The notes beneath the pieces were generated by a model. That model worked only from the letters and a program-made list of their open reading frames with translations. It did no database searches and was not told the DNA's origin. A DNA stretch of 36,007 bases from Prochloraceae cyanobacterium (GTDB lineage Bacteria > Cyanobacteriota > Cyanobacteriia > Cyanobacteriales > JASJDA01). The stretch covers positions 1 to 36,007 of the forward strand of contig JASJDA010000027.1 of NCBI GenBank assembly GCA_030065755.1, written 5' to 3'. Numbering within the stretch: the first letter of the stretch is position 1; each line of letters begins with the position of its first letter. Made by a program: the position numbers and the translations under genes. Positions 1,844 to 28,518 of the stretch are shown here, piece after piece.

Positions 1844-3490
1844 ATGTGGATTTTTAATCGCTCGCTGTTCCAATCTAAATCCCCTCATGCTGACGAGCAA
1901 AAACAGCCAACATCTGTCAAAGAAGAGGAGATAAAAGAATTAGCTGAAAAGCTTTGGAAAGCTGAAGGCTCCATAAAGATACTTAAAGATTCTTATTACC
2001 ATCGAGCGCGACAAAAATTAGAAACTGATTGGAGAGAACAAGCTAGAAGAACATTGTTTAATATAGGGAATCGAGCTAAAAGATCTCTTCAAAGTTTATA
2101 CAATTACAGCTCATTAAGAATCATTTGGGAGAAAATTTGTCCGCCAAAGGATGCAAGTGGTAAGCGAGGAGCTTCAACGTTTATTTTGTGGATTCTGGGA
2201 ATTCACTTTGCCACTTTTGGTATTGCCAGTGGTCGATATGAAAATCGGAAAGATACTTTGGAAACTGGTATAACTGTTGTTGCTACTCAGTTAGGTACTA
2301 ATAGGAAAGCAGCTAATCGTTTAGTTAATATTCAACAAACACCAATCCCTATACCTCCACAAATTCCTACATTTCAAGAGATCTTTAATATTAAAAATAT
2401 TGAAGATCTTGAATATTTTTGGTCAAAATCTACGTCGCCTTATTACTCCCTTTTTGGAGATCTAAAACTAAATCAAGAGATTATTATCGAGGTCAAAGAT
2501 CTGATAGTTAGTGAAAAAGAGAATCTAAAGGAAGTTAACTTAAGTAAAATCGACCTCAGTTTTGCCGACCTGAGAGAAGCCAAACTCAGTTTTGCCAACC
2601 TCAGTAGTGCCAACCTCAAATATGCCGACCTGAGAGAAGCCAAACTCAGTAGTGCCGACCTCAGTTTTGCCAACCTCATAGGTGCCAAACTCAGAAGTGC
2701 CAACCTCAGTTTTGCCGACCTGAGAGAAGCCAAACTCAGTTTTGCCAACCTCAGTAGTGCCAACCTCAAATATGCCGACCTGAGAGAAGCCAAACTCAGT
2801 TTTGCCAACCTCAAATATGCCGACCTCAGAAGTGCCAAGCTCATAGGTGCCAACCTCAGTAGTGCCGACCTGAGAGAAGCCAAACTCAGAGGTGCCAACC
2901 TCAGAAGTGCCAACCTCAGAAGTGCCAACCTCAGTTTTGCCGACCTGAGAGAAGCCGAACTCAGAGGTGCCAACCTCAGTAGTGCCGACCTCAGTAGTGC
3001 CAACCTCAAATATGCCGACCTCAGTAGTGCCAACCTCAAATATGCCGACCTCAGTAGTGCCAAACTCATAGGTGCTTACCTTGAAAAAGCTGATTTTACG
3101 AGTAAGGAGGAAACTGGAGTTGGTTTGACAATTGTTAGATCGTATTCGGGTCGATTCTTCGTCAGCATAGTTTATGAAAACACTTCAGCCTCTGAGAAAG
3201 GCATCAAGAAAAGGGATATGATCGTCAAAATTAACGGCAAAGAGACTAAGAAAATAAATATAGATGAAGCTAATAAGCTCCTTTTTGATAAAGAAGGCAC
3301 TGAAGTAACATTAACAATCCAACGAAACGATCAGCAAAAGGATTATGTTCTAGTTAGCGATCGCTTTACTATATCCGTCCAAGGTTTAACCCCAGAGCAA
3401 ATAAAGAAAGCTAAGAACTGGGAAAAAGCCAAATACGACCCAGAGTTCCGCCAACTACTTGAATCAACTGAAGAAACTGAATCGAATTGA
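1844..3490 (+). CDS. Membrane-anchored pentapeptide-repeat protein with C-terminal PDZ domain
   Basis: The 548-aa protein has four parts. Residues 1-100 are charged and helical, probably coiled coil. Residues about 111-130 (STFILWILGIHFATFGIASG) form one likely membrane segment. Residues about 230-418 are some 37 pentapeptide repeats of the A(D/N/K)Lxx type, which fold as a right-handed quadrilateral beta helix. Residues about 424-505 look like a PDZ domain (GVGLTIV at the carboxylate-binding loop position, then KRDMIVKINGKET and TVTLTIQRN-like strands). PDZ domains bind protein C-termini, so the likely role is a membrane scaffold or sensor; that is inference. Repeat units are nearly identical at DNA level, which suggests recent expansion. 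A terminator-like hairpin follows at 3654. The gene converges on another pentapeptide gene at 3972. Confidence 0.85.
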   Translation: MWIFNRSLFQSKSPHADEQKQPTSVKEEEIKELAEKLWKAEGSIKILKDSYYHRARQKLETDWREQARRTLFNIGNRAKRSLQSLYNYSSLRIIWEKICPPKDASGKRGASTFILWILGIHFATFGIASGRYENRKDTLETGITVVATQLGTNRKAANRLVNIQQTPIPIPPQIPTFQEIFNIKNIEDLEYFWSKSTSPYYSLFGDLKLNQEIIIEVKDLIVSEKENLKEVNLSKIDLSFADLREAKLSFANLSSANLKYADLREAKLSSADLSFANLIGAKLRSANLSFADLREAKLSFANLSSANLKYADLREAKLSFANLKYADLRSAKLIGANLSSADLREAKLRGANLRSANLRSANLSFADLREAELRGANLSSADLSSANLKYADLSSANLKYADLSSAKLIGAYLEKADFTSKEETGVGLTIVRSYSGRFFVSIVYENTSASEKGIKKRDMIVKINGKETKKINIDEANKLLFDKEGTEVTLTIQRNDQQKDYVLVSDRFTISVQGLTPEQIKKAKNWEKAKYDPEFRQLLESTEETESN

Positions 3491-3493
3491 AAT

Positions 3494-3528
3494 GCGATCT
3501 CGCGCCCGATCCGCGTAGCAGCGCGAGA
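3494..3528. repeat. GATCCGC palindromic repeat, copy 2
   Basis: TCTCGCGC...GCGCGAGA arms flank a CCGATCCGCGTAGCA centre. It begins four bases after the stop codon of the gene at 1844, so it lies in its 3' untranslated region. Confidence 0.75.
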
Positions 3529-3653
3529 AATCAGTGTTCTTACTGTTGTTTGGTGGTAGAGAGAAAGATATTCTTGACTTATACGGAAATTCTATTAACT
3601 TCGATTTTATTCACACCAGTTTTACACCTTCAACCTAATATTTGTTTCCCTTA

Positions 3654-3971: not shown

Positions 3972-6032
3972 TTACTCAGCGTCTTGCCAGCCTTCTAAAA
4001 TAGCAACTCCTACATTTACGTAAGGGTTATCTAAGAACTCTTTCATTGCTTCCTTCCAACCTGCTTGTAAAGCACTCACGAATCTTGCCTTTAAAGTTGG
4101 GGAAAGTGCTGCATTTACAAAAGCTTCTTGCTGCTCCACAGTCGCAGTAGGATTGCTTTCTTCTAACTGTTTCAATAACTTTTGAATTTCTGCTGCTGCG
4201 TCAGCGAGGGTTTGTTTTTGTTCTGGGGAGTAGGTGATTGAATGGTCATTAAACGTGCCTCCAGTTTGTGTGCCACCTTCAGCCGCGAAACCTCCGCCAA
4301 ACTTAGAACCACGAAGATCGTATTTTGTATTTTCTTTTTCTGCCATAGTTTCAATAATTCCTATTAATCTAGTATTATCCTTACGTATAATTTCTACTTG
4401 TTGGTAATAAAAATCTTTTTGTTCGTCTAAAAGTTTTATTTTTTCATCTTTAGCTTCCAACTGTAACTCATATTTCTGCCGAAATTTTTGTTCGTACTCT
4501 CCTTCATCTACATCATTTGGTACTTTGACCCGAATAACAAAAGCGCCATCGCCTTTATTTTCTATTGTCTGTACAACAGGTAATTCTCCTGTATCGCTCT
4601 CTACCCGAAGCTCTTGGAACGTTTTAAGGAATATTTGCCAATCTATACCATCTTTAAAAATTAGATCTACTGTTTCTGTTATCTTTGTGAATAACTTGGT
4701 AAATTCTCCTGGCTGAAAGTTTTTTGTCGAATCTGCGGGTCTACGTTCTTGTTTGTTTTCTTTTAAATAAATGTAATCACAAATTACACCATTTAAATTA
4801 GTTTCACTGTTAATATTCCAATCTTCTATGCAAGCTCCAGTAAGTATGGCATTTTGAAAATTAGTTCCTAGTGCTTGAATTCTTGTCAGGTTAACTTCAG
4901 TTAAATTAGCCTCACTTAGATTTTGTGAGTTGAAGTTTCTCTCTTTTAAGTCATTTCCGCTTAGATTTACCCCTTTTAAATCGATTTTCCTCAAGTCGAT
5001 ATTACTTAGATCGATGTGTTTGAAGCTGCTTCCTCTTAACTTGGCACCACTCAGGTTGGCCTCTCTCAGGTGGGCACCACTCAGGTCGGCATTACTCAGG
5101 TCGGCATTACTCAGGTTGGCCTCTCTCAGGTGGGCACCACTCAGGTCGGCCTCTCTCAGGTTGGCCTCTCTCAGGTTGGCCTCTCTCAGGTTGGCCTCTC
5201 TCAGGTCGGCACCACTCAGGTTGGCCTCTCTCAGGTCGGCACCACTCAGGTCGGCATTACTCAGGTTGGCACCACTCAGGTTGGCCTCTCTCAGGTGGGC
5301 ACCACTCAGGTGGGCCTCTCTCAGGTTGGCACCACTCAGGTTGGCCTCTCTCAGGTGGGCACCACTCAGGTGGGCCTCTCTCAGGTTGGCCTCTCTCAGG
5401 TTGGCCTCTCTCAGGTAGGTACTACTCAGGTTGGCACCACTCAGGTCGTGACTTACTCCACCTTGGTTGACAATCTCCCATACTCTACGCCATTTCGCAT
5501 TTATTCTGGTTTTTTCATTAATTTGAGTGTTTTTTAAATTAGCGCTACTGAGGTCGGCATTTCTCAGGTCGGCATTTCTCAGGTCGGCATTTCTCAGGTC
5601 GGCATTTCTCAGGTCGGCATTTCTCAGGTCGGCTTCTGTGAGGTTAGCACCACTCAGGTCGGCCTCTCTCAGGTCGGCATAACTCAGGTCGGCATTTCTC
5701 AGGTGGGCACCACTCAGGTCGGCATTTCTCAGGTGGGCACCAATCAGGTCGGCTTCTGTGAGGTGGGCACCACTCAGGTCGGCCTCTCTCAGGTCGGCAC
5801 CAATCAGGTCGGCACCACTCAGGTGGGCATAACTCAGGTCGGCTTCTGTGAGGTGGGCACCAATCAGGTCGGCATAACTCAGGTAGGTACTACTCAGGTC
5901 GGCACTACTGAGGTCGACTTCTGTGAGGTCGGCACCACTCAGCTTAGGCTTAATAGCAGGATTCTCTTTACGCCACTGATTCCACTCCTTTACACTTCGC
6001 CTTAGAATTTTTAAATGCTGAAGGTTAGCCAT
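3972..6032 (-). CDS. Pentapeptide-repeat protein with C-terminal coiled-coil and conserved tail
   Basis: A 686-aa protein. After a short basic N-terminus (residues 1-30) come two blocks of pentapeptide repeats, roughly 31-170 and 205-395, split by a non-repeat linker containing KWRRVWEIVNQGG. Then follow a helical region, a VIRVKVPND-like strand segment, a coiled coil (about 500-570), a Gly-rich stretch (KYDLRGSKFGGGFAAEGG) and a C-terminal helical domain starting near SPEQKQTLADAAAEIQKLL. That tail is shared by many cyanobacterial pentapeptide proteins, and its function is not known to me. No signal peptide or membrane segment is seen, so it is probably cytosolic. The start is supported by CGAGG upstream of the ATG. 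Repeat units are almost identical at DNA level. A long open frame on the opposite strand is only a by-product of the 15-bp period. Confidence 0.85.
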   Translation of the reverse strand: MANLQHLKILRRSVKEWNQWRKENPAIKPKLSGADLTEVDLSSADLSSTYLSYADLIGAHLTEADLSYAHLSGADLIGADLREADLSGAHLTEADLIGAHLRNADLSGAHLRNADLSYADLREADLSGANLTEADLRNADLRNADLRNADLRNADLRNADLSSANLKNTQINEKTRINAKWRRVWEIVNQGGVSHDLSGANLSSTYLREANLREANLREAHLSGAHLREANLSGANLREAHLSGAHLREANLSGANLSNADLSGADLREANLSGADLREANLREANLREANLREADLSGAHLREANLSNADLSNADLSGAHLREANLSGAKLRGSSFKHIDLSNIDLRKIDLKGVNLSGNDLKERNFNSQNLSEANLTEVNLTRIQALGTNFQNAILTGACIEDWNINSETNLNGVICDYIYLKENKQERRPADSTKNFQPGEFTKLFTKITETVDLIFKDGIDWQIFLKTFQELRVESDTGELPVVQTIENKGDGAFVIRVKVPNDVDEGEYEQKFRQKYELQLEAKDEKIKLLDEQKDFYYQQVEIIRKDNTRLIGIIETMAEKENTKYDLRGSKFGGGFAAEGGTQTGGTFNDHSITYSPEQKQTLADAAAEIQKLLKQLEESNPTATVEQQEAFVNAALSPTLKARFVSALQAGWKEAMKEFLDNPYVNVGVAILEGWQDAE

Positions 6033-7987: not shown

Positions 7988-8101
7988 ATTGAAAAAGTTC
8001 AGTTTTATTATGTAACCCTTTATAAAGCAGTTAAGTTATTGGTTAAAGCAAAAAAAGTTATCGGAAAAGGGTTACATAATAAAAATAAAAACATCTTTTT
8101 T
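7988..8101 (-). mobile_element. Small palindromic element, copy A
   Basis: Perfect 19-bp inverted arms at 8003-8021 and 8066-8084 enclose a core that, on the minus strand, contains CCGATAACTT and AACTTAACTGCTTTAT. The same core occurs at 16.8 kb and 22.2 kb. The outer end reads AAAAAGATGTTTTTATTTTT on the minus strand, matching GAAAAGATGTCTTTATTTTT of copy B. Outer limits are approximate and set by that alignment. It lies just upstream of the Uma2 gene and may displace or supply its leader. Confidence 0.7.
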
Positions 8102-8110
8102 CTCAAAATT

Positions 8111-9139: not shown

Positions 9140-10123
9140 ATGTCGATCGAGCCGCCAAAACCACTGTCAGATGAGCCACCAGACCCAGACGACCTACTCA
9201 AAAACGATATTAACCGAAGCATTTACAGATATCTCAAGAAGAATCCAGGCTGGCACGACGAAATAACTATATCCAACCGCGTCGGCACTCCTTTGCTAAC
9301 TCTGAGAAAATACCTCGCCCAATTAGAAGGGCATTTAATCGAGAAACAGGGAGATTCCTTGTGGAGATTGGAGACCTCGATCGAACAACAATTATATAAG
9401 CCTAAGCAGCTATCGCTCTCCGTCGAGTCCTCTACCTCAACTCAATTACTGGGGGATGAAAAATTCCTAGGGTATAAGAGTGAAGACGAGCAAGTTATGG
9501 AAAACCCTAGGAAAAAAAGTCACCCCAGTATAAAAAACCCTAGGAAAACGCGACGGAAAAAAGGGCTTGGAAACGGCTCGATCTATTACCGTACCTCGGT
9601 TAAGAATGGAAAAGAGTATACGGACGCTTATTACCACTACACTGAGAACGGTAAAAAGCGGACTAAATATATCCCCAAGTCACTGCTAGATAAAGTTAAA
9701 GAGGCAGAATCTCTCAAGCTTCCCGTAGCCGACATTTTAGTTTTACTGGGGGGAAATAATAAAAACCCTAGGAAAAAATCTGACATTCCCAATGAAGCGA
9801 TCGCTGAAACTAATAATAATGAGATCGACTCAGAGCTTAATTACCCTAGGAAAAAAAGTCCCCCCAGTACAAAAAAGCGCCAACAAGGATACGGCGGGGG
9901 ATACGTCGAGTACAAACCTATAAAACGTAGTGGCAAAACCTACCCTCAATATTGGTATCACTACGAATTTTGGGAGAATGGCGATCCCGCAGGGATCCGC
10001 GTAGCGGCACGCCTAATCAAATCTTCCAAATACATTCCTAAAAGACTTCTAGCTAAAGTACAAAAGCTAGATGCTCAAAAAGCCCCTGTGGTACAGATTC
10101 TAGAGTTATTAGGAATTAAATAG
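9140..10123 (+). CDS. Winged-helix-like protein with a duplicated C-terminal domain
   Basis: Start chosen at the ATG at 9140 (MSIEPPKP), giving 327 aa. Residues about 20-80 look like a winged helix-turn-helix (IYRYLKKNPGWHDEITIS, then LTLRKYLAQLE). Two copies of a roughly 70-residue domain follow: copy 1 runs from GNGSIYYRTSVKNGKEY to VADILVLLGG, copy 2 from GGGYVEYKPIKRSGKTY to VVQILELLG. Both share Y(H)YE/TEN-G, then KYIPK(S/R)LL and a closing helix. The domain is common in cyanobacterial proteins but I know of no function. A GATCCGC palindrome is inserted in frame in copy 2 and adds PAGIRVAA relative to copy 1. Each domain is preceded by a basic NPRKKS-type linker, itself a DNA repeat. A DNA-binding role is inferred from the winged helix and basic linkers. 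Confidence 0.75.
   Translation: MSIEPPKPLSDEPPDPDDLLKNDINRSIYRYLKKNPGWHDEITISNRVGTPLLTLRKYLAQLEGHLIEKQGDSLWRLETSIEQQLYKPKQLSLSVESSTSTQLLGDEKFLGYKSEDEQVMENPRKKSHPSIKNPRKTRRKKGLGNGSIYYRTSVKNGKEYTDAYYHYTENGKKRTKYIPKSLLDKVKEAESLKLPVADILVLLGGNNKNPRKKSDIPNEAIAETNNNEIDSELNYPRKKSPPSTKKRQQGYGGGYVEYKPIKRSGKTYPQYWYHYEFWENGDPAGIRVAARLIKSSKYIPKRLLAKVQKLDAQKAPVVQILELLGIK
9504..9876 (+). repeat. Paired 34-bp linker repeats with CCTAGG
   Basis: 9504-9537 and 9843-9876 match with two differences. They begin ACCCTAGGAAAAAAAGTC, include CCCCAGTA, and encode the (N/Y)PRKKS linkers before each duplicated domain. Shorter CCCTAGGAAAA copies occur at about 9538 and 9766. The repeat reflects the internal duplication of the gene. 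Confidence 0.75.
9981..10012 (+). repeat. GATCCGC palindromic repeat, copy 3 (in frame)
   Basis: Sequence starts GCGATCCCGCAGGGATCC and continues CGCGTAGCGGCACGC. It is translated inside the gene at 9140 as DPAGIRVAAR, residues 282-291. The first copy of the same protein domain lacks it, so it was inserted without breaking the frame. Confidence 0.8.
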
Positions 10124-11088: not shown

Positions 11089-11973
11089 ATGACGGATGCC
11101 GCTCAAAAAGTAACTGTTCGAGTAAAAGACTTTTCTGTCGAAGCTTATCAACTAACTATTGACGATCGAGATCTAATATTATTCACTCACCGTCAAATAG
11201 GGGAGATTATCGGTAAAACCAAAGCTACAGCTCAAAAATTCCTCAAACAACACGCTCCTGATTTGCCAGAACCCATAAAAGCCAAGATTCCAGATCGCAG
11301 AGGTCAAATACCTCTAACACCACCCACAGGAGCAATAGCTTACTGGCAGAAACAAGCTGAACTCGGTAATAGAGAAGCGATCGCTCTCATTGCTGCCTTA
11401 GATAATAAGTCAATAGAAGAATTTGAGGTTGTAAAAGCTTCTGAAACCTCCGATACGCCAGCTCAAGAAACTCCCAAGGCTAAGAGTGAATTAAAGCTCA
11501 TTGCCTCTGGAATTGAAATCGCTTCTAATTGGATGAAGGAAGCGGGAATAGACCCAATGGCAGTAGCCCACTGGCAGCTAAACGAGCTACAGAAGAAAGT
11601 TCCCGAACTTCATGACGTAATAACCTCAGCTCAAGCCGTAATTGCTCAGAATAGCGATTCTCCTACTGGCAAGATTGCCTCTCAACTAGCAGCCGACGTC
11701 TCGAAACAGGTTGGTGAAAAAGTTACTGCTGCTCAAATCAATAAAGCTTTACACGAACTGGGCTTTCAGGATTGGGCAAATCCTGGGAAAAATAGAGAAC
11801 GGAAATTAACTGAAATAGGAAAGCAGTATGGGGTAGCACTACTAACTACATCTGCTGATGGTTGGCAAGGGGCGCAGTTACGCTGGTTTGATTCTGTTAT
11901 TCCTTTGTTGTGCCAATATTTTTTCCGAAGCGCGCCGCGAAGCGGATCTCAAAGCGCTCGAACGAGCGCATGA
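11089..11973 (+). CDS. Plasmid/phage antirepressor-like protein, C-terminus altered
   Basis: A 294-aa protein. The N-terminal 60-70 residues contain a helix-turn-helix-like segment (THRQIGEIIGKTKATAQKFL). The middle is helical. The C-terminal part (VTAAQINKALHELGFQ, then RERKLTEIGKQYG and SVIPLLCQYF) resembles the terminal domain of phage antirepressor-type and plasmid proteins. A GATCCGC palindrome at 11929-11969 sits at the end of the gene and supplies the last residues (FRSAPRSGSQSARTSA). In the +1 frame just downstream, the codons LTTKELLELLDEKKN-stop (stop at 12025-12027) look like the original tail, and that stop overlaps the ATG of the next gene. The insertion has therefore replaced about 15 C-terminal residues. 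A role in plasmid gene control is inference. Confidence 0.7.
   Translation: MTDAAQKVTVRVKDFSVEAYQLTIDDRDLILFTHRQIGEIIGKTKATAQKFLKQHAPDLPEPIKAKIPDRRGQIPLTPPTGAIAYWQKQAELGNREAIALIAALDNKSIEEFEVVKASETSDTPAQETPKAKSELKLIASGIEIASNWMKEAGIDPMAVAHWQLNELQKKVPELHDVITSAQAVIAQNSDSPTGKIASQLAADVSKQVGEKVTAAQINKALHELGFQDWANPGKNRERKLTEIGKQYGVALLTTSADGWQGAQLRWFDSVIPLLCQYFFRSAPRSGSQSARTSA
11929..11969. repeat. GATCCGC palindromic repeat, copy 4 (frame-breaking)
   Basis: GAAGCGCGCCGCGAAGCGGATC followed by AAAGCGCTCG and AACGAGCGC. Two nested inverted repeats are visible. It overlaps the 3' end of the gene at 11089 and shifts its frame. Confidence 0.7.
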
Positions 11974-13364: not shown

Positions 13365-13488
13365 GTTTCACCCTTCAAGAAAGCAGATTGAATTTCTATG
13401 GGTAATTGTTAACAAAAACTTTTAAGATAGATTTTTTCTAGCATCAGCATCGGCATCTCTCATTGACATTGAATTTCTCCTAATACAG

Positions 13489-13519
13489 AACCTCGGTTTG
13501 ATAGCTGAGGTTTTTTGTT
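13489..13519 (+). terminator. Rho-independent terminator after the PGR5 gene
   Basis: AACCTCGG and CTGAGGTT form an 8-bp stem (one G-T pair) with an 8-base loop, followed by TTTTGTTT. It is 125 bp downstream of the PGR5-like stop codon, on the same strand. Confidence 0.7.
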
Positions 13520-16505: not shown

Positions 16506-16538
16506 GGCGCACAGCGAAGCGGATCGTGCGCGAGATCG
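16506..16538. repeat. GATCCGC palindromic repeat, copy 5
   Basis: GGCGCACAGCGAAGCGGATC followed by GTGCGCGAGATCG. It overlaps the region right after the recombinase stop and is an imperfect palindrome (GCGCAC/GTGCGC arms). Confidence 0.7.
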
Positions 16539-16563: not shown

Positions 16564-17264
16564 TTAGGATAGTTTTTTAAGAAGTGCGTTACTTTTAATA
16601 TACAGAGGATGGCGGGGATGACCCTTTTTGGTAATTCCCAGACAATAGAGGTTGGAGAAATTAGCTAGTTGTTCGAGTACGGTTTGATTTCGAGCGTTCA
16701 AACTGCCTGCGTTACCCGAAAAGATGTCTTTATTTTTTATAGAGAAGCCCTTTTGTTTTAACCGAGGTCCCGAGAGATGTATTTATTTTTTATAAAGTAG
16801 CCCTTTTACGATAACTTTACTACTTCGTTTATGACTTAACTACTATGAAGGGCTACTTTATAAAAAATAGAATTATTGTAACCCTTCGCAAATAACTTAT
16901 CGGTATAGAGGGCTTCTCTATAAAAAATAGAATCATTGTGACCCCAAGCCAAAACCACCACTTTAGCTTCTGATACAGCTCGTTGAATGTAGCGATCGTT
17001 ATCTTGACCTACAGGATCTTCTACCAGATGCAGTTTTTTGGGGTCAGAAGTACGATAAGCAAATAGGTTGACTACTTCGAGGAAACCATAACTCCAAGAA
17101 GAAGCGAAATTAATGCAGCGTCTAATAGTTGGGTCGTCAACGGTAGCATCAGCGCGGCTGGGATTGAGCATGATAAAAGTTATTTTGGGAGCATTAGCAT
17201 CCCACTCTCGCCATAAAGAGTAGCGGTAAAGTCCTGTTGGGTCTATTAGCGCACCTTTTTTCAC
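16564..17264 (-). pseudogene. DUF1643-family gene split by a nested palindromic insertion
   Basis: From the ATG at 17264 the frame shows DUF1643 features: GLYRYSLWREWD, ITFIMLNPSRADA, DDPTIRRC, GFLEVVNLFAYR, VVVLAWG. After AWG it runs into a 227-bp insertion and stops at 16836 with foreign residues. On the far side the true C-terminus resumes: NAGSLNARNQTVLEQLANF, YCLGITKKGHPRHPLYIK, ending LLKKLS-stop at 16564. The whole span is 701 bp; removing 227 bp leaves 474 bp, exactly 158 codons. So an intact 157-aa gene was broken by the insertion. The function of DUF1643 proteins is unknown. Confidence 0.92.
16718..16940 (+). mobile_element. Small palindromic element, copy B (outer), carrying copy B' (inner)
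   Basis: The insertion is flanked by ACCC at 16714-16717 and 16941-16944, a likely 4-bp duplication. Outer arms TTATAGAGAAGCCC and GGGCTTCTCTATAA lie at the two ends. In its loop sits a second element at 16772-16880 with arms TTATAAAGTAGCCC and GGGCTACTTTATAA, flanked by TCCC and ACCC. The inner is 109 bp and the outer, without it, 110 bp. Outer ends GAAAAGATGTCTTTATTTTT and inner GAGAGATGTATTTATTTTTT correspond, as do AATAGAATCATTGTG and AATAGAATTATTGTA. No coding capacity; if mobile, it needs a transposase from elsewhere. Confidence 0.85.
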
Positions 17265-17889: not shown

Positions 17890-18261
17890 TTAAACAGAAT
17901 CGTCTATCCAGCCACAACGAGGGCAATCCCAGTGAACCAGAGGAGGATTGTTTCGCGCCGCGAAGCGGATCTCTTCGAGATCGAATTTATAGCTGCATTG
18001 AGGACAAACACCCGTAAAGAAGGGATGATTATCTAATATTTCTAATTGTTCTTCTTTTGTGTATCGAGAAGGTTTATTGGGAATAAGTTGTCCGTCGTAG
18101 AACGAATAACCTTCTGGTGTCCATAATTCCTCTTCGGCTGCATTAGGATCTGGTCTGAAGTCCAAACAGCGATCGGTACTAACGCCATTAGGATGTACTG
18201 CGCAGATTAGATGTGGGTTGTGGGCGTAGAGGAGGCATCGATCGCACTCAGGAATCTTCAT
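17890..18261 (-). CDS. Zinc-ribbon protein with an in-frame palindrome insertion
   Basis: A 123-aa Cys-rich protein. The N-terminal half has CDRCLLYAHNPHLICAVHPNG, with C at 6 and 9 and another Cys pair later; the C-terminal half has CPQC and CPRC, a typical zinc-ribbon pair. The family is common in cyanobacteria but its role is not known to me. Between the two ribbon knuckles the protein reads DLEEIRFAARNN, encoded by a GATCCGC palindrome at 17953-17983; similar peptides appear in two other proteins in this window, so this is an insertion. It lengthens the loop between knuckles and may be tolerated. It is three bases from, and probably co-transcribed with, the phosphatase gene upstream. Confidence 0.75.
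   Translation of the reverse strand: MKIPECDRCLLYAHNPHLICAVHPNGVSTDRCLDFRPDPNAAEEELWTPEGYSFYDGQLIPNKPSRYTKEEQLEILDNHPFFTGVCPQCSYKFDLEEIRFAARNNPPLVHWDCPRCGWIDDSV
17953..17983 (-). repeat. GATCCGC palindromic repeat, copy 6 (in frame)
   Basis: On the minus strand CGATCTCGAAGAGATCCGC followed by TTCGCGGCGCGAAA. It is read as DLEEIRFAAR within the zinc-ribbon protein at 17890. Confidence 0.8.
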
Positions 18262-18649: not shown

Positions 18650-19640
18650 TTACTCGCTCGGATAATTTACGATCGTTGGCTCGATCCATATCTCTTTGGT
18701 TTGGGGATTTGCTCTCGTACCTATTGGTTGGGAGCGCCAATGTCCTCTTCTATAACCGACTTTTATTTTATAATTTCTTTGCTTTCCAGAAGCATTAATT
18801 CTATTCGACCTTTTAACAGAATAATGTTTTCCTATCCACAAAGGTCTTCTTTTCGCATTAGAAGTATTATTACCAAAGCCTTTAACTTGAGAAAAACTCT
18901 GAGTTTCTATTTCCTTAAAATCTTTGAAATGATAAGAGTACAATAAGACTTGATAGCACAAAGAAGTTATCGTATCTGTAAACAAAGTTTCAGAGTCATG
19001 CTCGAAACTACCGTCAAACAAATAAACACTATCATCAACAGAAAACTCGCCTATATTATTAAGATCTGATGGTTCAAAAGTTCGAGCATAAACTGAACCA
19101 TCATCTAGCACGGCGACCCAGTTTACCTTATCAATATCTTGCGTACCTGCCATGTCTAAATTGATTGTAGTTGCTCCATTCCTAATCGTTAAATCTTCTC
19201 TGATTTCTCCAGCATAAAGATAGTCGAAATAGAGCCACTTCAAATCTTGTCCGTCTGGAGACTCAATTAGACCTGTTGGTATCATTATTATTCCCCTAGG
19301 AACGAACGGTCTAAATTTAAATTCTGACCCTTGGTAGCTGGGTCATTAAAAGAGATTCGGCAAGGCTTTTTTCTAACCAATAAATGGGGACAATTTCCGA
19401 AAATATATAACCAGCAGCAATAGAAGCACAACTTTGGGCGAAATCTTCAGTTTTTCCTTTGACTAAGATTTCTATACCGTAAAGCTGAACTGCCATCCAT
19501 TTGCCAACATTTTTAACGTCCGCATATCCTTTGACGCGGGGATAATTTAACTTATTAGTTATTTTTTTATAGTAATTGGTCTTCTTAATTTCGGTAAAAA
19601 AAGCTCTTTCTTTCAGATCGCGCCCTGCGGGATCCGCGTA
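18650..19640 (-). pseudogene. Frameshifted paralogue of the gene at 33320
   Basis: The C-terminal half is open from 19285 to 18650 and ends GYRRGHWRS then IWIEPTIVNYPSE, matching RRGHWARR and WIEPTLVNYVE of the intact gene at 33320. The N-terminal half is found upstream in another frame (about 19335-19620): IKKTNYYKKITNKLNYPRVK, AQSCASIAAG, VPIYWLEKSLAESLLMTQLP, parallel to IKKTKAYKAIGKNINYRSVK and CYWLASELSESL. The frames meet near 19340, where a single-base shift gives KFRPFVPRGI, parallel to LKPFVNRGI. A GATCCGC palindrome at 19616-19650 lies at the N-terminal end and an in-frame stop just beyond it removes the start. The gene is therefore broken twice. Upstream, 19651-19807 shows no gene. 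Confidence 0.8.
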
Positions 19641-19650
19641 GCGGATCGCT
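19616..19650. repeat. GATCCGC palindromic repeat, copy 7
   Basis: GATCGCGCCCTGCGGGATCC followed by GCGTAGCGGATCGCT. It sits at the N-terminal end of the broken gene 18650-19640 and appears to have removed its original start. Confidence 0.75.
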
Positions 19651-20560: not shown

Positions 20561-21064
20561 TCGTGGCGAGCGATGGAATCCTACACTATTTATCAATTCG
20601 ATCTCGATCGAGTTCGGTGGAATGAAGAACTAGATGGAATCCTCCCTAAAGGTTGGACAGAAACAGAATTGGGAAGAGCTTTATTCAAACAAGCCAGTAC
20701 TAGTGAAAGCAAATTCACTGCTAATAGAAGTGACTGGAGCGAGAAAGTAGTTTGGGAATTGACTAAACTATTAAAACTACCTGCTGCTAGATACGAATTG
20801 GCTGCGGTGATAGATGGGGACAAAGAAATTCCAGGATCTATCTCCATAGATTGCTCGCTCGTCGGAGATGAAAAACGCTATCCAATAGAAGAGCTGCTCG
20901 TCAGTACCATGCCTAAATACGATTTTCCTGAAGATTACACCATTGGCAATACAATTAAAGCCTTAGCAAAGATCGATGTTCGATTGCCGCCTAATTACGA
21001 AAGACCTCTTTCATAAATATTTTGTGATATACTTAAAGATTGTTTCGTTCAAGTAGAAGGGCGG

Positions 21065-21344
21065 GCGATCGAGGGCTGGAGTTAGCGATCGAGGGCTGAA
21101 ACTGGCGATCGAGGGCTGGAGCTAGCGATCGAGGGCTGAAACTGGCGATCGAGGGCTGAAACTGGCGATCGAGGGCTGAAACTGGCGATCGAGGGCTGAA
21201 ACTGGCGATCGAAGACTGGAACTGACGATCGAGGGCTGGAGTTAGCGATCGAGGGCTGAAACTGGCGATCGAAGACTGGAACTGGCGATCGAAGGCTGGA
21301 GCTGGCGATCGAGAGCTGGAACTGGCGATCGAGAGCTGGAACTG
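21065..21344 (+). repeat. Fourteen tandem 20-bp HIP1-containing repeats
   Basis: Fourteen head-to-tail units of the form GCGATCGAGGGCTGAAACTG fill exactly 280 bp. Variants differ at a few positions (GAAGACTGG, GAGAGCTGG, GGAGTTA, GGAGCTA). Each unit carries GCGATCGA, one base from the HIP1 octamer. They lie inside the insertion sequence between its end and the transposase stop. Since 20 is not a multiple of 3, coding is unlikely. Confidence 0.92.
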
Positions 21345-21372
21345 GCGATCTCGGAGCACCGTGCGGCGCGCC
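21345..21372. repeat. GATCCGC-type palindromic repeat, copy 8 (degenerate)
   Basis: GCGATCTCGGAGCACCGTGC followed by GGCGCGCC. It directly abuts the last 20-bp tandem unit and shares GCGATCTC with the other copies but lacks the central GATCCGC. Confidence 0.5.
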
Positions 21373-21709
21373 AGGGAAGAAAAATTGACATCAAAAATTG
21401 ATTCAGTCATTGATTAATTCCTGAATTTTATCGATATATTTAATTTTTTGTTTCAATTTATCTGGCTAATTCGTAATTATAAATACCCGCAATTAAATTA
21501 CTTCTCAAGCCAAATCTGCGATGACGATTTCTATATGTATCGGATAAGATTTTAAAGATTTTTAAACAACGATTAACGTGCTCAACAACAATTCTTAAGC
21601 GATTTAATTCACGGTTATATTTTTTTTGTTCTTTCGTTAATTTAGCCCCTCGTGGTTTTTTAATAGGAGTTTCACTTAAATGATGAATTTTAGCTATTCC
21701 TTGATAGCC

Positions 21710-21916
21710 GAATGCCGCTAAGTTAACCTCAAATCCTTAATTTATGGAGGGGAGTAGGCAGTGGGGAGTAGGGAGTGGTGATAGGAAGTTGTCGGGGCTA
21801 AAATTTATATCCAGAGTACAATTTAAGCAGTTTCTTCCCCACTCCCCACTCCCCACTCCCCACTCCCCAAACACCAACTAATTCAATGCTTGCAACGATA
21901 ACTTAGCGGCATTCCC
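21710..21916. mobile_element. 207-bp fold-back element in the transposase gene
   Basis: GAATGCCGCTAAGTTA (21710-21725) and TAACTTAGCGGCATTC (21899-21914) are perfect 16-bp inverted repeats. The flanks both read CCTTGATAGCC (ending 21709 and 21925), a 9-11-bp direct duplication. Without the element and one flank copy, the transposase reads DKGYQGIAKIHH without a break. Inside are two GC-rich short repeats, GGGGAGTAGG-type on the left and four ACTCCCC units on the right, which could pair in a longer stem. No gene inside. Confidence 0.85.
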
Positions 21917-22195
21917 TTGATAGCCTTTATCGGCTATCATTCTAATTGTTTTCCCGAGTTTTATATTACTATTTTTAAAAATCTTAAAATCATGAATTCT
22001 TCCTCTTCCATGCTCTAAACATATTATTTTCTTTGTTTGTCGGTCAATTAAAACTTGAATCTTTAAAGTATGTTCTTTTTGTTTTCCACTGTAAAAATCT
22101 TTTTGATTAGAAGATGGTCTTTGGATAGAACACTCCATTACATCAACAACAACATCCCGAGCGCCAAGAGAGGGAGCTAATAATTCTTTCCTTGT

Positions 22196-22298
22196 GGAAA
22201 ATATTATTTATATTAAGGAAGTCCTTATCGATAACTTATTTACTTCGTTTTTAACTTAACTGCTTTATGAGGACTTCCTTAATATAAATATATTCAGT
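22196..22298 (+). mobile_element. Small palindromic element, copy C
   Basis: Perfect 18-bp arms TTTATATTAAGGAAGTCC (22207-22224) and its complement (22271-22288) enclose the conserved core CGATAACTTATTTACTTCG and AACTTAACTGCTTTATGAGG. Deleting 22196-22298 joins CTTGT to TCCTGG and gives a continuous LPGTRKELL in the transposase. Exact ends are approximate by one or two bases. Confidence 0.8.
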
Positions 22299-23162
22299 TC
22301 CTGGCAAGCTAAATTTTCTAGATTTTATTAAAATATTTTCAATTTTTTTAACAATTCTAAAAGCAGTACTTTCTGATATTTTATAGCTGATAGCCAAACG
22401 TAGATATGTGGGATATTCTCGCAAATATTGTAATGTTAATAATATCTGTTTTTTAACCCCTAATTTTGGAGGAGCACCTGATTTTTTTTGTTTTTTTTAT
22501 TTTTTTATATTCTTTTTTTACTAATCGAACCATTTCTTGAAAAGTTTGACGTTGAACACCAATTAATCGTTTAAAATCTGAAGCTGATAGTTTGCGCAGT
22601 TGTTTATCTTCCATTTAAACCTCAATATATAAAATTTACTATTATAACATAAAAAAATTATGAAAGAGGTCTGAAGTACCCGATGGCATCAAAGATGGGG
22701 TCGATATGTTTGTTGGAATAGTCATGCTCGATGCTTGGATTGGAAATAGCGACCGTCACGACCGCAACTTAGAAATAGTCAAAAGCGCGGATGGTAGTGT
22801 TTATTTATCTCCAGTTTTCGACAATGGAAATAGTTTAGGAGCAACAGAAAAACCAGAAGTTAGGGCATCTATATCAGTATCTGATTACAGTAAAAGATAC
22901 AATGAAGCTTGTTTTACATCTGGAGAAAGAGAGTTAACGGGATTTGATACCTTTGAAATAGCAGCTATGATTAGACCGCAAGCATCAATAGTTTGGCTCG
23001 AAAAACTTTCATTAATAACCTCTCAACAGATCGACCGAATATTTGAAAAAATTCCGAACGAGCGCATAAGTATAGATGCCAGGTTATTTGCTAAACAGTT
23101 ATTAAAATACAATTCATACGAGCTTTTGAATTTGTCTCGATAACTAATGAGGAATGACCCTT

Positions 23163-27588: not shown

Positions 27589-28518
27589 ATGTGGTTAAAA
27601 TACGGTGTTGCCAGAAATGGAAGTCTTTTAACGATCGAGGAAGTATCTTCAGGAAAAACCGATCTCCTCTGTCCGTTCTGCCTCAGTCCCCTAATAGCCA
27701 AGAAAGGGAAAATTAAGCAGCATCACTTTGCTCATTTAGGAGGACAAACCTGTTTGAGAGTTAAAAGGGGTCAAATTCCTTCCCTGCCACTTTACGATAA
27801 TTTCCACCTTCAACTCAATGCCCAGCATTTTCAACTGGTAAAACAGCTTTGGCGAGAATATGCTGACAGTCCTCACGCGATCGTCTACGTACCTTTTGCT
27901 TTGCAGCTCAAAAAGTTGTTTGAGAGAGTGGAGGGCGGTTATCGGTTTACAGATCTCGGAAAAATTCCAGTTGGCGGACTGTCTTTGTCTAGTTTTAACC
28001 AGGTACAAGAACCGATGATAGTCGATCGACTGACTGAATTAACTAATTCTGTTGCCGTTGCTTCTGGCATTAACTCTGTCAGGTTACAAGAGAAATTAGG
28101 AGACCTAAAAATATATCAACTTCAGATACAACGCATTCTCCAACTATCTCTATACTTTTTGGAAATTAAAGCAGACGGTCAAACATTTCACAAGATTGGC
28201 GTAACTAGAAGAACGATGGGCGAGCGTATACCAGAAATAGAACGAGATTTAAAACAACATTATCGAGCGATTTCGATCTTCGTGCTGGGAACGTGGAAAC
28301 ATAGAGGAAATGTGGAGCTATATTTCAAACATCGCTACAAAGACTTTAATTATAAAATTGGTAAATTAACTGAATATTTTAAGTTTAAAGACATCGAGCG
28401 AGTCAAATACGATCTAGAACAAATGCAGCCGAAGATATTAAGCGATCTCGCAGAGATCCGCTTCGCGGCGCGAGAATTAACTATTTACCAAAGTTCGGCA
28501 ACGCCTGTTTTAAATTGA
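27589..28518 (+). CDS. CoiA-like zinc domain plus GIY-YIG-like nuclease domain (paralogue 2)
   Basis: A full-length paralogue of the gene at 6921, about 20 kb away. Start taken at the second of two adjacent ATGs (27589; the other is 27586) because the protein then begins MWLKYGVARNG, parallel to MWLEYALGKDE. Metal-site residues are C28, C31, H45, H46, H49 and C55. The C-terminal nuclease-like domain has LYFLEI, TFHKIGVTRR, a GER turn and NVELYFKHRY ending LTEYFKF. The middle TDLGK-to-VQEPMIVDRL part also aligns. A GATCCGC palindrome is read in frame near the C-terminus as SDLAEIRFAARE (from residue 285). It is followed about 75 bp later by the RecD2-like helicase gene, so a DNA-processing function for both is plausible. 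Confidence 0.78.
   Translation: MWLKYGVARNGSLLTIEEVSSGKTDLLCPFCLSPLIAKKGKIKQHHFAHLGGQTCLRVKRGQIPSLPLYDNFHLQLNAQHFQLVKQLWREYADSPHAIVYVPFALQLKKLFERVEGGYRFTDLGKIPVGGLSLSSFNQVQEPMIVDRLTELTNSVAVASGINSVRLQEKLGDLKIYQLQIQRILQLSLYFLEIKADGQTFHKIGVTRRTMGERIPEIERDLKQHYRAISIFVLGTWKHRGNVELYFKHRYKDFNYKIGKLTEYFKFKDIERVKYDLEQMQPKILSDLAEIRFAARELTIYQSSATPVLN
28442..28474 (+). repeat. GATCCGC palindromic repeat, copy 9 (in frame)
   Basis: GCGATCTCGCAGAGATCCGC followed by TTCGCGGCGCGAG. It is the best-formed copy. Read by eye, it has no stop codon in any of the six frames. Its frame here gives DLAEIRFAAR within the CoiA-like gene at 27589. Confidence 0.85.

Follow-up and report, generated by a model that had tools for sequence, protein, structure and literature searches.

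New REPIN-like mobile hairpins of narrow distribution in a cyanobacterium, with arms that change together and loops in both orientations

The palindromic repeats in the window (the whole stretch of 36,007 nucleotides that was analysed) belong to a family of mobile hairpins that is new, resembles REPINs and has a narrow distribution; it is notable for the concerted evolution of its arms with inversion of its loop and for the complementarity between its ends and its target sites. The explanation that we consider probable as a whole is that of a non-autonomous mobile hairpin family, in which the arms would be kept matched mainly by template switching, with contributions from selection and from a transposase acting in trans.

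An earlier note on this DNA had named four copies with exactly complementary arms, and all four are indeed present with arm pairs that are exact complements. Copy 1 (7991..8104, minus strand) is intergenic, upstream of a Uma2-like ORF, and its hairpin (8003-8084) has 19-bp arms (8003-8021/8066-8084; TTTTATTATGTAACCCTTT), a 44-nt loop and the outer ends GAAAAAGTTCAG / ATAAAAACATC. Copy 3 (22193..22304, plus strand) lies within an IS transposase gene of the DDE_Tnp_4 type (21878..22614, minus strand), which it breaks (protein ...RKFSLPG | KELLAPSLGARDVVVDVMECSIQRP...). The hairpin of this copy (22206-22289) consists of 20-bp arms (22206-22225/22270-22289; ATTTATATTAAGGAAGTCCT) around a loop at 22226-22269, with AGGAA/TTCCT either side. 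The other two copies are nested in a DUF1643 gene (16566..17264, minus strand). The whole insertion covers 16714..16944 (minus strand), counting the target repeat ACCC at 16714-16717 and 16941-16944, which reads GGGT on the coding strand. The outer element (16718..16940, minus strand, on which its ends read CACAATGATTCT / AAAGACATCTTTTC) has arms at 16732-16751 and 16909-16928 (ATTTTTTATAGAGAAGCCCT), and its loop is split at GCGAAGGG|ACC by the inner element (16772..16880, minus strand). The latter has arms at 16785-16805 and 16848-16868 (ATTTTTTATAAAGTAGCCCTT), a class-1 loop (16806-16847), the ends TACAATAATTCT / AAATACATCTCTC and GGG on either side. A core shared by all four copies had also been claimed; this holds for the other named copies, but the loop of the outer one (16718-16940) is of a second class (ATACCGATAAGTTATTTGCGAAG / ACCTCGGTTAAAAC). 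Without the insert, the conceptual DUF1643 protein, which is interrupted at ...VVVLAWG | NAGSLNARNQTVLEQ..., gives an unbroken alignment with intact cyanobacterial homologues (57-68% identity); the homologues of this gene point to filamentous cyanobacteria, e.g. Microseira and Tychonema. Folding of three window copies as single-stranded DNA gave z = -5.1, -6.8 and -6.8 against dinucleotide shuffles, and 0 of 200 shuffles were as good.

The window contains several other features. A match to PsrR1, a cyanobacterial photosynthesis regulatory sRNA (Rfam RF02701, 55.3 bits), is found at 13428-13515 (plus strand), and two 15-bp periodic repeat blocks in opposite orientation (2446-3150 and 4849-5945) probably encode pentapeptide-repeat proteins. 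A 20-bp direct-repeat array (21004-21403) adjoins the broken transposase gene within a low-complexity ORF. There is also a second small repeat family, the GC-rich dispersed GATCCGCGTAGCGG / CCGCGAAGCGGATC, with sites at 3506-3533, 9992-10012, 11930-11948, 16507-16525, 17953-17971, 19629-19649 and 28453-28480.

The search of this and related genomes that had been proposed as a check revealed more than 150 copies in the own genome of 8.46 Mb, a draft of 455 contigs with some copies at contig ends. The three window copies gave 94, 52 and 65 blastn matches there, and models of the hairpin and of the loop alone both gave at least 150. The genus contains just one other genome, that of the sister species, in which three or four copies are present. 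Outside the genus the family was not detected: among the 391 genomes of the order, the model matched two at E <= 1e-7, both in this genus, and none of the other 389, and blastn across 292 genomes of the phylum gave matches in the own genome only. Searches of plasmids, phages and viral contigs gave zero matches to the hairpin family, and nothing in Rfam exceeded the threshold at the elements.

The element is about 110 bp long and forms a single long hairpin with a stem of 18-23 bp, a loop of 42-45 nt and unpaired, conserved ends of 10-13 nt. The outer part of the stem is AT-rich (ATTTTTAT...) and the inner part GC-richer. In its inner half each arm forms a mini-palindrome of its own (AAGGA-AG-TCCTT, AGGG-AA-CCCT, AAAG-TACC-CTTT), and this arm-internal stem averages 3.57 against 2.33 ± 0.13 in shuffles. 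The loops fall into a few classes, of which the main one, TTTACGATAACTTATCTGC-TTCGTTT-ATAACTTAACTGCTATAG, contains two near-repeats. Beyond the stem there are several end families (TACAATGATTCT...AAATACATCTTTC, TACAAAAAGTTC...AAAAACATCTCTC, GTAACGAATAATTC...AATTTTCTTCC), and there is partial complementarity between the outer ends (ATG/CAT, ATT/AAT). Nesting is not restricted to the window: 9 of 155 copies are enclosed by another pair of inverted arms, and seven of the nine occupy a loop of their own kind. The nested arrays may stem from separate insertions into the middle of the loop or from copying of a single composite. At L102:1500 and L191:524 the enclosing palindrome is an unrelated one (CTCGCGATTCATCTCAC...), which would fit a general preference for hairpin loops as targets.

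A first finder demanded perfect stems and was thus biased, and therefore the loop-only model was used to gather 122 copies, in the selection of which the arms had no role. Truncation or nesting has left 20 of them without an arm or badly decayed, and 102 retain both arms. Pairing is complete (18/18) in 92 of these and at least 17/18 in 97, whereas exchanged arms (5' and 3' arms taken from different copies) reach at least 17/18 in 10.7%; as the copies are related by descent, the 102 are not independent tests, but the contrast within versus between copies is unaffected by kinship. The covariation first noticed in the window is thus far above chance. RNAalifold on a plain MAFFT alignment had recovered 5 pairs only, because arms of unequal length slip out of register, and was replaced by this direct pairing test. 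The matching does not come from many copies with identical arms either: 58 distinct 21-nt arms occur across 74 copies, and in 70 pairs of copies the loops are at least 92% alike but the arms differ, are matched internally and are in some cases of unequal length. A few copies carry single mismatches such as T-G that resemble intermediates (L178 compared with L046).

Two causes of the covariation had been put forward, namely selection of the folded form and repair of the arms against each other. The comparison of copies favours arm-to-arm copying as the main cause, because loop inversion is random, mismatched intermediates are rare and one stem has been extended. Relative to the outer ends, the loop has one orientation in 28 copies and the opposite one in 32. 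Loci L003 and L005 share their ends and arm with L002 and the inner window copy, and the loops become near-identical once inverted. In L177 one entire outer end has given way to the complement of the other; both are identical in inverted form (GGTAACGAATAATTC...GAATTATTCGTTACC), and the stem, which now runs through them, measures about 35 bp. Template switching between the arms of inverted repeats is known to homogenise the arms and to invert the spacer (PMC8604942), and in comparative terms this signature is present in the family. A polymerase stalled at the hairpin would switch template and copy one arm, and at times an outer end, from the other; each mutation would in this way be passed to the partner arm and the loop would occasionally be flipped.

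Alternatively, selection on the folded form alone, as an RNA or a single-stranded DNA hairpin, could have fixed compensatory mutations one after the other. The near-perfect stems of more than 95% of the two-armed copies could result from strong purifying selection, the T-G-type mismatches look like the expected intermediates and the mini-palindrome is retained in every arm. Selection alone does not, however, predict the random loop orientation, the changes of length that both arms share or the symmetric outer ends of L177, and intermediates are very scarce given the number of arm types. We therefore regard it as a rather unlikely sole cause. Next to arm-to-arm copying, selection for a foldable unit is a likely helper, to which the mini-palindromes point: it may remove broken stems, the foldable unit being the substrate of transposition.

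That the repeats are small and mobile, as had been suggested, is supported by paralogous empty sites in the same genome, which show clean insertion at L005, L185, L047/L056, L020, L010 and others, with flanks of 78-97% identity. At L005, GAAGGG|element|GGGAAG corresponds to the empty site GAAGGGAAG, and at L185, AAAGCC|element|GCCGTA corresponds to AAAGCCGTA (95/93% identity, 117 nt per side). TGAC flanks the element on both sides at L047/L056, and L030 has no target duplication (empty site 100%/93% identical). The duplicated target is mostly 2-4 bp and ranges from 0 to 5 bp overall (about 0-1 at L030 and L191, 3 at L005 and L185, 4-5 at L047). Among 84 independent insertions the right-hand 3-mer recurs at the left in 62, with 24 expected. 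Such two-sided sequence could be a copy of the target or a cleavage site carried by the element.

The ends of the element are related to the sites in which they are found. The dinucleotide directly before the final TC of the element complements the target, with Watson-Crick pairs in 68 of 168 positions against 35 expected. When shuffling was confined to the end families the expectation rose to 49 (z 5.0, 0 of 2000 shuffles), although shuffle p-values are optimistic here, as related copies are not independent. Ends in GGTC precede GCC in 12 of 13 cases and ends in GATC precede GTC in 2 of 2, CTTC/TTTC is mostly followed by GGG, and TCTC is mixed. The combinations GGTC/GCC and GATC/GTC were each found in two separate end families (TACAAAAAGTTC, TACAAATC). 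Pairing of the end dinucleotide with the target (e.g. GGTC|GCC, GATC|GTC) may, with less certainty, help in target choice. We tentatively propose, at less than even confidence, a mobile palindrome with its own evolutionary engine: template switching would renew both arms, flip the core and keep the element foldable, and a tip dinucleotide complementary to the target would set the insertion site and, in separate subfamilies, vary in step with the target.

Less certain than the copying of the arms is the enzyme that moves the elements, which may be a single-strand (HUH/Y1, IS200/IS605-like) transposase provided in trans. The own genome encodes 16 Y1 transposase genes or fragments. Ten of the 16 proteins were scanned and all were of the IS200/IS605 type, below the REP_Tyr_transpos cut-off; the other six are mostly fragments. 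A Y1 enzyme in trans is our preferred guess for the mobiliser, if at slightly less than even probability, and a DDE enzyme seems distinctly less probable. A full-length IS that shares the ends, which had been suggested as something to look for, was not found: a model search at the 16 Y1 loci, four of which were read, gave none, and the nearby elements are insertions with their own ends. In a genome-wide scan with one end motif for an autonomous copy, six end-only matches were read several kb outwards and lacked a second end; protein-coding elements with these ends were absent from the regions read. A REPtron was considered for four Y1 genes that have an element at most 90 bp away, but when read out the elements proved to be insertions at differing places in IS605 units. 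One IS605 unit (L253, contig C13 of the own genome) carries two hairpin elements, one between the left-end palindrome and tnpA and one in tnpB.

It could also be argued that a DDE transposase moves the copies as classical MITEs, with arms that are terminal inverted repeats kept complementary by the needs of transposase or folding and with loop flips that are ordinary inversions. Short two-sided target repeats at many sites, the partly complementary outer ends and the wealth of DDE transposases in the genome are in line with this. The most variable stretch of the element (AGGGAACCC, AAGGAAGTCC, AAAGTAGCCC) can, however, not be a fixed protein-binding repeat, the identity of the target tracks the end dinucleotide of the element, and the scan with one end motif found no autonomous copy. 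Instead of fixed terminal inverted repeats and a constant target duplication, the family has variable arms and a target repeat of 0-5 bp that is absent in L030, and we consider DDE-driven MITEs unlikely. Another alternative is that the copies are REPINs that a RAYT mobilises and belong to REP families already described from cyanobacteria. The elements do have two inverted repeats in one hairpin and many dispersed copies, and the inverted doublet, hairpin, compensatory changes and intragenic copies have all been described for REPs/REPINs (PMC3116915, PMC3733652). On the other hand, inspection of the ends of about 150 copies revealed no GT[AG]G (or CGTC) tag beside the arms (CTCTC|GTC is confined to targets that start with GTC), all ten Y1 proteins scanned fall below the RAYT cut-off and the loop is conserved here, while in REPINs the spacer is the less conserved part. 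These points weaken the REPIN reading to the degree that we find it improbable. Finally, that the copies are decayed ends of a once-resident IS or assembly artefacts, as the fragmented draft and the copies at contig ends might imply, is refuted for the bulk of them, which lie internally between unique flanking sequences and have empty counterparts at paralogous sites; with copies in the sister species as well we give it almost no credence.

Some of the copies lie in genes. Among 139 copies with sufficient flank, 31 lie between long same-strand frames; 24 of these shift the frame or bear a stop, several by chance and the rest mostly in transposase genes. The other seven are in frame and free of stops, and further in-frame copies in shorter ORFs bring the total to about 7-10. 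Examples are found in a 758-aa telomere-resolvase-like protein (L114), in TnpB (L159, with an empty paralogue in L247), in a PemK/MazF-like protein (L172), in an IS607-type resolvase (L077) and in a 525-aa ORF of the sister species (L129), and the translated inserts resemble KENIIFNKEVLNSSQVKNEVNKLSGKDFLIKNKN. Intact downstream frames (e.g. at L018) raised the possibility that gene-borne copies are spliced out of the RNA or bypassed, which was rejected; relaxed selection explains these frames, because most broken genes are transposases. The telomere resolvase itself (L114:341-2614, minus strand) has a ResT/TelK catalytic domain (E 1e-28) and a long tail, with the in-frame element after the catalytic domain, and it suggests a linear replicon or a phage with hairpin telomeres.

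The closest known systems are REPINs and IS200/IS605-type MITEs. REPINs, or REP doublets, are single hairpins of about 100 nt with two inverted repeats and a spacer that occur in hundreds of copies, also in cyanobacteria (PMC3116915; PMC3733652). They share with the present family the compensatory stem changes, the location of some copies in genes and arms that are each a small hairpin. Besides lacking the arm-defining GTAG/CGTC tag and conserving its loop, the present family differs in about 58 arm types, random loop orientation, conserved ends of 10-13 nt outside the stem and the lack of a RAYT among the ten Y1 proteins tested. The ends of IS200/IS605 elements and of their non-autonomous derivatives resemble it in hairpins just within the ends, a short target kept alongside and possibly a target that base-pairs with element DNA. 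IS608 picks its target through such pairing and can be reprogrammed (PMC5934647). The guide of IS608 lies 5' of the hairpin foot, however, and the guide-like dinucleotide here at the very tip, so that the end-target pairing is a likeness to IS608 and not membership; short target sequence is also present on both sides here, and the action of TnpA is putative. If confirmed, this pairing would be a further natural case in which DNA guides a minimal mobile element to its target. Rickettsia palindromic elements (100-150 bp) reside in frame within protein-coding genes and are read through (PMC3733652, PMC10969869). Some copies here are alike by such residence, but only a minority is in frame and up to 24 break genes, mostly those of transposases; the in-frame copies show how palindromes of this kind supply genes with coding inserts in organisms other than Rickettsia. 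Lastly, quasipalindrome correction by template switching (PMC8604942, PMC7202029) shares arm homogenisation and spacer inversion with this family, but it is known as scattered mutations, whereas here it would shape an entire mobile family. In a single genome the family offers over 100 natural replicates of arms evolving in concert, and it lets arm correction and spacer inversion by template switching be measured in nature, apart from selection on the hairpin.
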